Of a stretch of DNA of 55,694 nt, positions 4,440-18,014 are shown one piece after another (within the stretch, counting starts at the first letter, position 1; each line of letters opens with the position of its first letter). Position numbers and translations under genes: made by a program. The DNA lies in the NCBI GenBank assembly GCA_004299235.1, contig SCQL01000025.1, positions 1 to 55,694 on the forward strand, in the 5' to 3' direction. The DNA is from a bacterium (GTDB lineage Bacteria > Chloroflexota > Dormibacteria > Dormibacterales > Dormibacteraceae). The notes beneath the pieces were generated by a model, which saw only the letters and a list, made by a program, of their open reading frames with translations, had not been told where the DNA came from and did no database searches.

Positions 4440-5428
4440 TGCTGGCGAATACGGGGCAGGATCTGCGCACCGTAGAGCTCCAGGAATCGAGCCTGGTCGT
4501 CACCCGGAGCGTGGAACACTAGGTGGTTGAAGCCCAGCTCGAGGTACGGCCGCAGCTGCTCCAGGTGCTCTTCGGGGTCGTTCGACACGAGCCAGCGACG
4601 ATGCGCGACGTCCTCCACGCCGCGGGCGAGCCTCTCCATCTCCCGTGGGTCGTCGATGCTCGCCTTGGATTCAGCCGGCAGCGCCAGCGCGGCCCAGATC
4701 TTCGTGTCCTCCATCGCCCGCGACCGATCGGTGTCGTACGACACCTTGACCTCGATCATCCTGTCCAGCGTGCCGGCCTCGCGCCCGGATTCGGACGCGC
4801 CTGCGGCGAACGACGGCAGCAACTGCTCGGAGTAGAGCTCCATGCCCTTGCCCGAGGTGCAGATGAGACCGTCCGCCGCGCGCCCGGCGAATTTCGCGAC
4901 CTGCGGCCCGCCGGCTCCAACGTAGATCGGAACCGGGTCGTCCGGCCGGTCGTAGATGGTCGCGTTGCGCGTGTGGTAGTACTCGCCGTCGAACGTCACG
5001 AGCTGCTCGGTCCAGAGCTGCCTGATGAGCCGCACCGCCTCGCGCAGCCGCGCGAAACGCTCCTTGTTGTCGGGCCACCGCACACCGAGAGCGCCCTCGT
5101 TGAGATGCTCCCCCGTCCCGACTCCAAGGATGACCCGACCTGGAAAGAGCGATCCCAAGGTTCCGAACGCCTGAGCCACGATCGCCGGGTGGTAGCGAAA
5201 CGTCGGCGTCGCCACGGACGTTCCGAGCAGCACCCGCTCCGTCCGCTCGCCGGCGGCCGCCAGCCAGGCGAAGGCAAAGGGCGCATGGCCGTCGGAATGC
5301 CGCCAAGGCTGGAAGTGATCACTGACGAAAACGCTGTCGAAGCCATTGGCCTCGGCCGCATTCGCGTAATCGAGCAGCTCGCGCGGGCCGAACTGCTCGG
5401 CCGAAGCCTTGTAACCGAGCCGCAGCAC
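4430..5428 (-). CDS. fgd: F420-dependent glucose-6-phosphate dehydrogenase
   Basis: A 332-residue luciferase-like (LLM) TIM-barrel enzyme that oxidises glucose 6-phosphate and reduces F420. It shares the diagnostic N-terminus [15 protein letters not shown] and the catalytic SDHFQPWRH (H38, W42) with mycobacterial Fgd1. It also has the GVGTGE glutamate (about E107), the phosphate-binding lysine in CTSGKG, the KASIDDP segment, and the C-terminal [10 protein letters not shown]. Because these residues follow Fgd1 so closely, the specific call is stronger than a generic LLM oxidoreductase. It lies in the F420 biosynthesis operon, so cofactor synthesis and reduction are co-expressed. The GTG start is one base after the upstream gene's stop. 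Confidence 0.92.
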
Positions 5429-5429
5429 C

Positions 5430-5633
5430 TTACCGGCCCTGGTCTGAGGTGCGCCTGTAGTAGCGCTTCCAGCTGAAGGCGATGCCGCCCGCGGCAGCGC
5501 CCGCGATGACCACCCCGAGCGCGATGAGGCTGTGGGCGTCCAAGCGCCCGATCGCGCTCGAAGTCAGCAGGACGAATGCCCCCACGGCCAGCAGCATCAT
5601 CACCACGAGCGTGACGGCTCGGTGGAGCTTCAT
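5430..5633 (-). CDS. Small two-helix membrane protein, first gene of the F420 operon
   Basis: A 67-residue protein with hydrophobic helices at about 7-28 and 35-53 and a basic C-terminal tail ([13 protein letters not shown]). I do not recognise a family. The stop codon is one base from the fgd start, so it is the promoter-proximal gene of the F420 operon. A role in that operon is only suggested by position. Confidence 0.7.
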
Positions 5634-6956: not shown

Positions 6957-8093
<1,137 letters not shown>

Positions 8094-15016: not shown

Positions 15017-15687
15017 GGGGTGGCCGTCGTCCCGCTCTTGGGCGCGGCCTGGGCGGCCTCGGCCGCGCTGGCCTCGCGTTCGACGGCCAGGCGCTGCGCC
15101 CGGCCTTGCAGCCAGACCTCGCGAATGCGCTGCAGAGCCGTCAGGTTGGTCAGCACCGCCAGTAGAAATACCACGGCGTAAAGCACGACCCCGCCGAAGA
15201 TCAAGCCCACCACGGTCACCACCACCCGCTCCGGCCGGGCGAAGAGGCCGGAGTCACATGTGAAACCGAGGCTCTGGGCGCGGGCACGCACGTAGCTCAC
15301 CAGAAACGAGCCGGCCAGCGCGGCCAGCGTCGCGAGCACGAGCCACCGCTCGAGCGGCCCGCCCGCGCTGACGAAATATGCGGTCAGCCCGATGTAGATG
15401 GCGCCTTCGGAGTAGCGGTCGAGGGTCGAGTCGAGGAACGCTCCATACGGGTAGCTGGCGCGGGTCGAGCGCGCGAGCGCGCCGTCGAGGATGTCGCACG
15501 TGCCGGCGAAGATCAGCACGACGCCCGCCCACCGCAGGTGGTCGAACGCCGTGAGCGCCGCGGCGGCGAAGGTCAGCGCCAGCCCCACGACGGTGACCTG
15601 GTTCGGCGTCAGCGGAACCCGGCCGACAGCAGACACCAGGGCCTCCGCCTTCCGGCGGACCCAGGCCTCAAACCGCGTGGTGAACAT
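15013..15687 (-). CDS. CDP-alcohol phosphatidyltransferase, phosphatidylinositol-phosphate-synthase-like
   Basis: A 224-residue integral membrane enzyme with about six hydrophobic helices. The catalytic motif is complete: D65-xx-D68-G-xx-A-R73 and G82-xxx-D86-xxx-D90. It transfers a phosphatidyl group from CDP-diacylglycerol to an alcohol. The neighbouring inositol-phosphate synthase, PimA-like glycosyltransferase and acyltransferases point to inositol 1-phosphate as acceptor, as in the mycobacterial pgsA1-acyltransferase-pimA cluster. Phosphatidylglycerophosphate synthase is the alternative. It overlaps the glycosyltransferase by 20 bases. The last 25 residues are Ala-rich. Confidence 0.85.
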   Translation of the reverse strand: MFTTRFEAWVRRKAEALVSAVGRVPLTPNQVTVVGLALTFAAAALTAFDHLRWAGVVLIFAGTCDILDGALARSTRASYPYGAFLDSTLDRYSEGAIYIGLTAYFVSAGGPLERWLVLATLAALAGSFLVSYVRARAQSLGFTCDSGLFARPERVVVTVVGLIFGGVVLYAVVFLLAVLTNLTALQRIREVWLQGRAQRLAVEREASAAEAAQAAPKSGTTATP

Positions 15688-16870
15688 TCGTCACTTCCTT
15701 GGTGAGCGCGGCCGCCGGGCGAGCCGCTTCGCCGCCCCTGACGAGGCGGGCGGCGGCGGCCCGCCGAGCGTCCTGATAGACCTCGATCACCTGCGCCGCC
15801 ACAGCATCCCATGCATATCGCCGCGCTTTGTCATGCGCGTACGCACCCATGCGCCGCCTCAGCTCGGCGTCCCTGGCCAGGATGATCAACGCGGCTCCGA
15901 GCTCGGCCCAACCCTTGGGCCGGACGGTCATGCTGTCGCGTCCCGGTTCGAGCACCGAGAGATAGCCCTCGATCTCGGTCGCCACGACGGGCAGCCCGGA
16001 CGCCATGGCCTCCAGCAGCACGATGCCGAAGCTCTCTCCCCCCGTCGCCGGCGCGCAGAAGATGTCCGCGCTGTTGTAGTAGCGCGGAAGTACGCTGTCC
16101 GGAACGTAGCCCGCCAGGACGACATCCGGGACGCGGTGCTTGGCGATGTACGCCTCGACCCGGCCGCGCAGCGGTCCGTCGCCGACGACGATCAGACGGC
16201 TCTGCGGCACGCGGGCGCGCATGAACTCGAAGCCGCGCAGCAGGTCGCCGAGGCCTTTGCGCTTTTCGAGGCGGCCGACGAACAGGACGTTGATGCTCTC
16301 GTCTCGAAGGTGACGGATGGGAGCCAAGCCGGGTTTGAAAACGTCGACGTCAATCCCGTTCGGGATGACCCGCAGCGGGAAGTCGGGGAAGTAGCGGTGC
16401 AAGAATTCGCTCGCCGGCCGGCTGACCGCGATCCCCCTATCGATATGGGCAAGGTTCGGCGCGAGCCAGCGCCGGCCGTAGTAGTAACCGACGTTGGAGC
16501 GTGCGAAGGCATGGAACGTGCCGACGTTCGCGGTGGTGGACATGCGCAGCATCGTCATCGGCAGAGCCGGCATGAGCGGCTCGTGGAAATGGAGGACGTC
16601 GAAGCGCTCTCTCTCGACGATGGCGGCCACCCGGCTGGCGAGGTGGAAGCTCAGCGTGATCCGCGCGACTGATTCGTTCACCGGGATGGCGATGGGGCTG
16701 CCGATGCGATAGAAGCGCGCGGTGTCGAAGTCGATGTCGGCGCGGCTCGAGGGGGCGAAGATCCGCGTCTCGTGCCCGGCGTGGCGAAGCTGACGCGCCA
16801 GGTGCCGCACATGGTCGTTCACGCCGCCCGGCGACGCGAAGTCGTAAGGCGAAACCAGCCCGACCCTCAT
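15668..16870 (-). CDS. PimA-like GT4 glycosyltransferase
   Basis: A 400-residue GT-B enzyme. The N-terminus MRVGLVSPYDFASPGGVNDH and VLHFHEPLMP closely follow the PimA pattern, and the nucleotide-sugar site FCAPATGGESFGIVLLEAM (about 290-308) holds the EX7E motif. PimA mannosylates phosphatidylinositol from GDP-mannose on the inner membrane face, and the gene order fits that role. MshA-like transfer to inositol phosphate is an alternative. The ATG at 16870 is preferred; the frame is open to 17158, but that extension is only the translated 107-base repeat pair. Confidence 0.87.
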   Translation of the reverse strand: MRVGLVSPYDFASPGGVNDHVRHLARQLRHAGHETRIFAPSSRADIDFDTARFYRIGSPIAIPVNESVARITLSFHLASRVAAIVERERFDVLHFHEPLMPALPMTMLRMSTTANVGTFHAFARSNVGYYYGRRWLAPNLAHIDRGIAVSRPASEFLHRYFPDFPLRVIPNGIDVDVFKPGLAPIRHLRDESINVLFVGRLEKRKGLGDLLRGFEFMRARVPQSRLIVVGDGPLRGRVEAYIAKHRVPDVVLAGYVPDSVLPRYYNSADIFCAPATGGESFGIVLLEAMASGLPVVATEIEGYLSVLEPGRDSMTVRPKGWAELGAALIILARDAELRRRMGAYAHDKARRYAWDAVAAQVIEVYQDARRAAAARLVRGGEAARPAAALTKEVTNVHHAV

Positions 16871-16890
16871 CTCGATCCCCAGCACGGCCG

Positions 16891-16997
16891 GCAGGCCGGA
16901 TTCCATCCGGCCGTCCCCCAGGCGTCCCAGTTCAAGGTGCCACCCAATCGTCGTGGGGAGAGGGGGGCCCGTGGGGCGACCCTGATCCCCCCGCGCC
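16891..16997. repeat. 107-base direct repeat, copy A
   Basis: About 100 of 107 positions match copy B at 17020-17126 by eye, a start-to-start period of 129 bases. It opens with a perfect 8-base inverted repeat (GGCCGGAT/ATCCGGCC, 3-base spacer). It ends in GATCCCCCCGCGCC, which is repeated alone at 17131-17144. It lies between the acyltransferase and the glycosyltransferase, inside the operon. Confidence 0.85.
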
Positions 16998-17019
16998 TTC
17001 CAGATTCCCCGCGCCGCCT

Positions 17020-17126
17020 GCAGGCCGGATTCAATCCGGCCGTCCCCCAGGCGTCCCAGTTCAAAGCGCCACCCAATCGTTGCGGGGAGAGGGGGGCCCG
17101 TGGGGGGATCCTGATCCCCCCGCGCC
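17020..17126. repeat. 107-base direct repeat, copy B
   Basis: Second copy of the repeat at 16891-16997. The hairpin arms GGCCGGAT and ATCCGGCC are unchanged, and one of the differences from copy A falls in the hairpin loop. The pair nearly fills the 277-base gap upstream of the PimA-like gene. Confidence 0.85.
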
Positions 17127-17147
17127 TCGTGATCCCCCCGCGCCGTT

Positions 17148-18014
17148 TCATGGTGCACCGTCCCAGATGCGGTGCGGCACGTGCCACTGTTCGGGGTGCC
17201 GCCGGATGAAACCTTCGATGTGATGGAGCAGCTCCTGGGTGGCGCGGATCTGGTCCGCCTTCGGGTCGCCGGTATGCCTGGCGATCACGGGCGGTGCGCC
17301 CTCGGCCACGTAGGTGTCGTCCGGCAGCCTGTACACACAGACCGGAACGAGTGGCGTGCCGAGCCGCAGCGCCATGGCCGCCGGGCCCAGGGGAATCGGC
17401 GCCGGCCGGCCGAAGAACGGCATCATGTGGCCCGTGCCCGTGATATCGCGGTCGATGGCAGTGATGACCATCTCCTGGTCCCGCAAAGCCTGCAGCACCT
17501 TGCGGATGCCGCCAAGATCGAGCGTCAGCACGCTGATCCCCAGGCGCGCTCGCGTATCCCGATACCACTCGAAAAGCGCGCGCGGCTCCAGTTCTTCGGC
17601 GAAGAAGCTGACCGGCGTCATGGTCGCCGACCAGATGGCCGAGACGACCTCGTACGAGCCCATATGGCACGAGACCGCCAGCACCCCCTTGCCGTAGGCC
17701 CGGGCCTCCTCGAGATACTCCGCACCCTTCACCGTGAGCCGAGAGCGCATGGCCTCCACCGGCGTGCTCGGCAGCATCATCAGGTCGGCGTACGCCTTGG
17801 CGTGGTTGCGGAAGTTCAACCATGAGATGCGGCGCAGTTCGCCCGGGGTGAGCTCCGGGCACGCGACCTTGAGATTGCACTCCAGGCGAGGCCGGGCCAG
17901 GGGCGAGAAGAGCCAGGCAAAGCGGGCGGCCAGCACGGCCAGGGCGTACGCCCACGACCGGGGCAGCCGCTCCACCAGCGACTGCACGGCCTTGAACGCT
18001 CGGTAGCGCCACAC
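17148..18014 (-). CDS. LPLAT-superfamily acyltransferase (PatA/HtrB-like), downstream copy
   Basis: A 288-residue membrane-associated acyltransferase. The catalytic H-x4-E is H117-MGSY-E122, and MPFFGRPAPIPLGPAAMALRLGTPLVPV is the acceptor-binding segment. Proteins of this type acylate lipid A or, in mycobacteria, the mannose of phosphatidylinositol mannosides (PatA). The position next to a PimA-like gene and a phosphatidyltransferase favours the second role. The start is GTG at 18014, 74 bases after the other acyltransferase; the two are clearly distinct paralogues. Confidence 0.87.
   Translation of the reverse strand: MWRYRAFKAVQSLVERLPRSWAYALAVLAARFAWLFSPLARPRLECNLKVACPELTPGELRRISWLNFRNHAKAYADLMMLPSTPVEAMRSRLTVKGAEYLEEARAYGKGVLAVSCHMGSYEVVSAIWSATMTPVSFFAEELEPRALFEWYRDTRARLGISVLTLDLGGIRKVLQALRDQEMVITAIDRDITGTGHMMPFFGRPAPIPLGPAAMALRLGTPLVPVCVYRLPDDTYVAEGAPPVIARHTGDPKADQIRATQELLHHIEGFIRRHPEQWHVPHRIWDGAP

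Follow-up and report, generated by a model that had tools for sequence, protein, structure and literature searches.

In the window (the whole stretch of DNA that was analysed, 55,694 nt), a spacer occupied by repeats separates two minus-strand genes, encoding a lipid acyltransferase and a PimA-like glycosyltransferase, in a gene row that also carries an inositol-3-phosphate synthase, a second acyltransferase and a phosphatidylinositol-phosphate-synthase-like gene. The repeats belong to a GC-rich element of about 122-140 nt with no protein evident inside, consisting of a hairpin (H1), a core, a terminal hairpin (H2) and a short T-rich tail, for which we built a covariance model (R1). The features of the locus are as follows:

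15668..16870 (-), gene for a PimA-like GT4 glycosyltransferase; start placed at 16870 from conservation
16871-17147, spacer with repeats, flanked by two minus-strand genes (acyltransferase and PimA-like)
16871..16892 (-), leader, from H1 to the PimA start; G-rich stretch inside
16877..16997 (+), tandem duplicate, pimA-proximal; R1 84.3 bits, non-standard pairs in H2; H1 intact, H2 broken
16894..16912 (+), hairpin H1 of the duplicate copy; sequence, pattern match, fold
17006..17126 (+, H1-first strand), intact element copy, nearer the acyltransferase gene; R1 101.4 bits, E 1.4e-23
17023..17041 (+), hairpin H1 of the intact copy; sequence, pattern match, fold
17099..17124 (+), terminal hairpin H2 of the intact copy, CGTGGGGGGATC CT GATCCCCCCGCG; covariation across 33 copies
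17127..17144 (+), extra 18-nt tail, which repeats part of the 3' arm of H2
17148..18014 (-), gene for a lipid acyltransferase (PF03279), with its stop codon towards the H2 side of the element

The acyltransferase (17148..18014) had as its best NCBIfam match phosphatidylinositol mannoside acyltransferase, at a score below that model's cut-off. Judging from the gene arrangement, the repeats are probably transcribed as part of the operon, as the initial annotation had stated, and no intrinsic terminator was called within the window. The G-rich stretch in the leader (16871..16892) is possibly Shine-Dalgarno-like. A coding extension of pimA through the repeats was rejected: upstream of 16870 the reading frame remains open across both repeats to 17158 on the minus strand, yet conservation starts only at 16870. 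The 129-nt period equals 43 codons, and over 16871-17158 (minus strand) gene callers may append a false N-terminus of about 96 residues to PimA.

The repeat pair first noticed by the initial annotation (16891-16997 and 17020-17126) is real, with 100 of 107 positions identical, and repeat finding lengthened it to 125 nt at 90% identity with a spacing of 129. The 8-base hairpin arms described there (GGCCGGAT/ATCCGGCC) are indeed the same in both copies, with a single change in the 3-nt loop (TCC/TCA), and the tail motif GATCCCCCCGCGCC occurs exactly three times in the window (16984, 17113 and 17131), its third, lone occurrence being the 18-nt tail; with two mismatches allowed, the window holds six matches vs 4.2 expected in shuffles. 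H2, which was absent from that annotation, is perfect in the distal copy save for one T-G pair and broken in the pimA-proximal copy. R1, whose alignment contains both window copies plus 31 copies from other genomes, scores the window copies at 101 and 84 bits, far above chance. Relatives have single orthologous copies, which share 83-87% identity with 17006..17126; the pair in the window is a local tandem duplication of one family member, and not two insertions. As to identity with a known RNA family, Rfam gave zero matches in the window at gathering scores and no match on the element in eight loci at E up to 0.5, and this candidate was dropped. Elsewhere, at locus L050, a TPP riboswitch (5364-5477, minus strand) scored above its gathering threshold.

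Searches for further copies and for empty sites found both in relatives, the window's own genome being almost single-locus, with one further copy only, degraded, at C9:162559-162633. BLAST located the element in 29 of 37 genomes from the window's family and in 2 of 24 genomes from other families. R1, built from 33 copies and run with 58 candidates scored per genome (copy numbers are therefore lower bounds), detected it in 35 of the 37, at 1 to at least 48 copies each, and in 3 of the 24, as single weak matches. The genomes are fragmented, and MAGs where named; gene calls came from a home-made codon model. Scanning named genomes with a pattern yielded at least 120 loci, all of them, among the matches listed, in genomes titled as Dormi(i)bacterota, Dormibacteraeota or Chloroflexi MAGs. 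Searches of viral contigs, plasmids and phages gave no element match, and carriage by any of these was set aside. We found no published description of the element in the open-access literature. With many dispersed copies in relatives, unrelated flanks, empty sites and flanking target duplications, the suggestion of a mobile interspersed element holds; the family is neither confined to a single locus nor devoid of conserved structure. We read it as a small, protein-free mobile DNA of soil Dormibacterota, belonging to one family of Candidatus Dormibacterota.

Several variants were seen in passing. A second element type has the H1 half in common and another 3' half that ends in a long GAGAAGGAACC..GGTTCCTTCTC-like hairpin (loci L042, L055, L078, L096, L126, L134 and others). 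A repeat starting GCAATCAGTAAGGACC lies inside H2 of two copies (L086, near 6962-7127, and L153), apparently as a nested insertion. Tandem copy number differs at the same site between the close genomes G034 (L125/L215) and G033 (L123/L222), as well as at L065 and L062.

The hairpins reveal which strand of the element folds. H1 is invariant in the R1 alignment as part of the search pattern, so that this is not evidence for its conservation there; H1 variants of the form GCCCGGA..TCCGGGC in two loci (L023 and L034) retain pairing. In H2, 6 of 10 pairs are changed on both sides across the 33 copies, and the hairpin is maintained by compensatory changes. Read on the H1-first strand, the non-Watson-Crick pairs of H2 comprise 17 G-T vs 0 A-C (44 distinct arm pairs; p 1.5e-5), and an earlier, overlapping set of arm pairs gave 20 G-T vs 2 A-C. 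Because the wobble is G-T and not A-C, the folding that matters is that of the H1-first strand, whether in RNA or in single-stranded DNA; in the window, this strand is antisense to the pimA operon. After H2, T content at +2 to +4 is 53-62%, and the H1-side boundary shifts by some 15 nt or more between copies.

Across relatives, the pimA site is filled in 7, truncated in 2 and empty in 15 of 24 tree rows, counts that leave out two outgroup rows. Filled sites are confined to one supported clade of 18 genomes, and 'empty' takes 4 changes on the tree and 'filled' takes 5, which fits one old insertion with several losses; repeated insertion is the alternative. The orthologous copies at this site all point the same way, with their H1 end 21-22 nt ahead of the pimA start in nine loci by pattern and in a tenth by alignment (G033, where the pattern missed the element), the two truncated sites included. 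The orthologous elements have a mean identity of 84% (21 pairs), while pimA itself is 74-84% identical in the 15 valid pairs, the element being higher in 14 of them; the six G024 pairs were left out of this comparison (contig end). At third positions, pimA identity is 38-65% over all 21 pairs, the G024 pairs being short. Constraint is likelier than conversion at the window's pimA site, because the genome itself lacks another good donor; unlike the window's genome, relatives do have donor copies. The element may plausibly affect pimA expression.

Strong conservation of the pimA copy, whose H1 end stands at -21 or -22 in every relative with a filled or truncated site, and the covariation of H2 are in keeping with a mainly cis-acting RNA, in which the folded spacer transcript would govern how stable the pimA portion of the message is or how it is translated, and copies elsewhere would persist because they do likewise. 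We consider this unlikely, given that the strand that folds is the operon's antisense strand and that most of the tree genomes have an empty site, two more a truncated one. On the RNA structure that the initial annotation had offered as its other option, the evidence is mixed: the window copies fold barely better than shuffles (z -1.8 to +0.4), which counts against such a role, yet H2 is conserved across the family. The distribution over gaps cuts both ways as well. Gaps that carry the element are co-directional in 56, convergent in 38 and divergent in 8 cases, vs 165, 34 and 53 for element-free gaps of at least 60 nt, so that convergent and co-directional gaps are enriched and divergent ones depleted, which favors a role in transcripts; within the co-directional gaps, 33 sense and 23 antisense copies give no clear orientation preference, which counts against it.

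Placement next to genes was assessed on the set also used for target duplications, obtained by reducing 178 hits to 141 distinct ones with 170-nt flanks and these to 119 solitary copies, some of which are orthologous and hence not all independent. A stop codon is abutted by 88 of the 119: 57 copies have, on their H1 side, a sense gene that stops no more than 35 nt from H1, and 46 have an antisense gene on their H2 side that stops no more than 10 nt from the element's end; 15 copies belong to both groups and 31 to neither. Among copies with free room of 30 nt or more, placement at the stop was seen for 19 of the 23 co-directional sense copies and for 7 of the 13 antisense ones, vs 2.4 and 0.4 expected under uniform placement. 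At the stop of one gene, five genomes have the element directly downstream (in sense in three, in antisense in two) and two have an empty site; the same stop being filled in both orientations across genomes, insertions therefore recur. TGA is rarer at the abutted stops (13/57 and 11/46) than among genes in general (323/709), which fits a TA-containing target preference, or stops that derive partly from the element. Adjacency to stop codons is not new as such, since known REPs, too, are found no more than 20 bp from the ends of ORFs and can contribute the stop codon, according to the accessible text of PMC3733652.

Evidence for mobility comes from aligned empty sites at pimA and at several other loci, from dispersed copies within one genome that are up to 92% identical with unrelated flanks, and from direct repeats of the flanks. 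At locus L128, a 50-bp gene end is present on both sides of the element, and it occurs once only in the empty sites of L093 and L140. Over the whole set, a flank-to-flank direct repeat score of at least 18 was reached by 22 of the 119 copies vs 12 of 3000 mismatched pairs and 7 of 3000 random positions at the same loci; a first duplication test, on another selection, had placed 24 of 95 copies above the control's 99th percentile. Eighteen of the 119 show a constant geometry, with the right copy starting a few nt at most from where the element ends and the left copy ending 10-41 nt before H1, and with duplications of 20-101 bp that are mostly 83-100% identical; the remaining hits at this score are residual element sequence or have another geometry, and 101 of the 119 copies carry no detectable duplication of the right geometry. 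Target-site duplication, a trait of classical MITEs, is thus present in 18 of 119 copies and unusually long, and the ends that the duplications define bear no inverted repeat by eye. By class, duplications accompany 13 of 42 left-only copies, 0 of 15 abutting on both sides, 0 of 31 right-only and 5 of 31 abutting on neither, i.e. 13 of 57 left-abutting vs 0 of 31 right-only copies (p 0.003), an asymmetry that is not explained by plain cut-and-paste.

We infer that the duplications arise at insertion. They could also stem from tandem duplication of gene end plus element, followed by loss of the second element, since the element often occurs in tandem (the window; L065, L125, L141) and its copy number is not the same in the close genomes G033 and G034. 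This seems rather improbable: the 18 right-hand duplicates start no more than a few nt from the element end, where loss would have to stop every time, and empty sites hold the segment once (L128 vs L093 and L140; also L119 and L148). A composite transposon between two elements was rejected, the genes checked being housekeeping ones (a penicillin-binding protein at L099, Tad-type pilus or secretion genes at L128).

Candidate enzymes were sought by profile. Palindromes, location at 3' ends and strand-specific folding would suit a true REP moved on a single-stranded hairpin by a RAYT (an IS200-like tyrosine transposase), and GTAG is the commonest tetranucleotide before the H1 palindrome; it precedes H1, however, in a minority of copies (45/132), and a conserved GTAG tag was not found. 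Y1_Tnp (PF01797) was above cut-off in just 1 of 61 genomes, G011, itself without the element, and target duplications are not mentioned for REPs in the accessible text of PMC3733652, all of which makes this origin quite improbable. As a separate observation, G011 is a family member without any element copy and has eleven Y1 transposase matches (L162, L164-L173). The IS1634-family transposase (NF033559) was above cut-off in 3 of 41 genomes (G011, G037 and G049), none with R1 matches. RVT_1 was present in 14 of 61 genomes, just one of them among the genomes with flanked copies; G025 alone has it among the 14 genomes putatively linked to copies with duplications. The occurrence of RAYT/Y1_Tnp, IS1634 or RVT_1 does not track the element, and each was rejected as its mobilizer.

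Taken together, the window most probably holds two tandem copies of a non-autonomous, REP/MITE-like mobile element that inserts beside gene ends and can duplicate 20-101 bp of target, with an old insertion at pimA. Some machinery would place the element next to gene ends; insertion could duplicate 20-101 bp of target, usually a gene 3' end when the element is in sense, and such a duplication would leave an intact gene end and stop codon beside it. At pimA, an ancestral insertion between the acyltransferase stop and the pimA start would have been lost or truncated in several lineages, conserved where intact, and tandemly duplicated in the window's genome. A very improbable alternative is a SINE-like bacterial retroposon, a short structured RNA that would be reverse-transcribed into genes, joining mRNA 3' ends at stop codon or terminator. 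The hairpin and T-rich tail might then be an RNA 3' end, and the sharp 3' and looser 5' boundary, the strand-specific wobble pairs, and long target duplications in sense with none in antisense would follow; the enzyme would be of a kind missed by the profiles used. Returning to the REP/MITE-like element, the spread of palindromic repeats between genes has long posed a question, so far tied to RAYT transposases. Here is a family without a RAYT in step, whose long, readable duplications at defined gene ends make boundaries, targets and orientation rules testable from sequence, and it suggests a way for a mobile element to enter tight operons with both genes left unbroken.

Among known systems, REP/BIME of the GTAG and CGTC super-families are described in the accessible text of PMC3733652 as single palindromes of 20-40 bp within about 20 bp of ORF 3' ends, with termini that can supply stop codons, the CGTC REPs too being without a known transposase. 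The element shares with them palindromes, a position between convergent or co-directional genes and location at ORF 3' ends, and is unlike them in its 122-140 nt, two hairpins, absence of a conserved tag and long flanking duplications. A CGTC REP, as given there, has an unpaired CGTC tag, an 8-9 bp palindrome and a CCA-like tail; in the element, H1 is followed by GTC, so that CGTC overlaps the last base of H1, and no CCA tail is evident. Long and variable direct repeats on insertion (8-514 bp) are known for IS1549/IS1634, with no mechanistic model proposed in the accessible text of PMC2266710; these insertion sequences are autonomous, of the DDE type, and carry terminal inverted repeats, and no such ends were seen on the element. 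ERIC, RUP and Correia-type MITEs are likewise 100-200 bp long, mainly non-coding, strongly folded and intergenic, but most of them, as far as the accessible text of PMC2229807 goes, have terminal inverted repeats and TA termini and are A+T-rich, whereas in the GC-rich element no terminal inverted repeat was seen. The same text describes YPAL/RU-2 of Yersinia, which is 168 bp long, with variable target duplications of 3-26 bp and both empty and filled sites. Small size, absence of terminal TA, internal inverted repeats, a composition that is not A+T-rich, target duplications of variable length and empty sites are common to both. YPAL/RU-2 belongs to another phylum, makes shorter duplications and targets sites at or next to dyad symmetries, whereas the element's targets are at stop codons; by analogy with its description, we call the element closest in behavior to YPAL.
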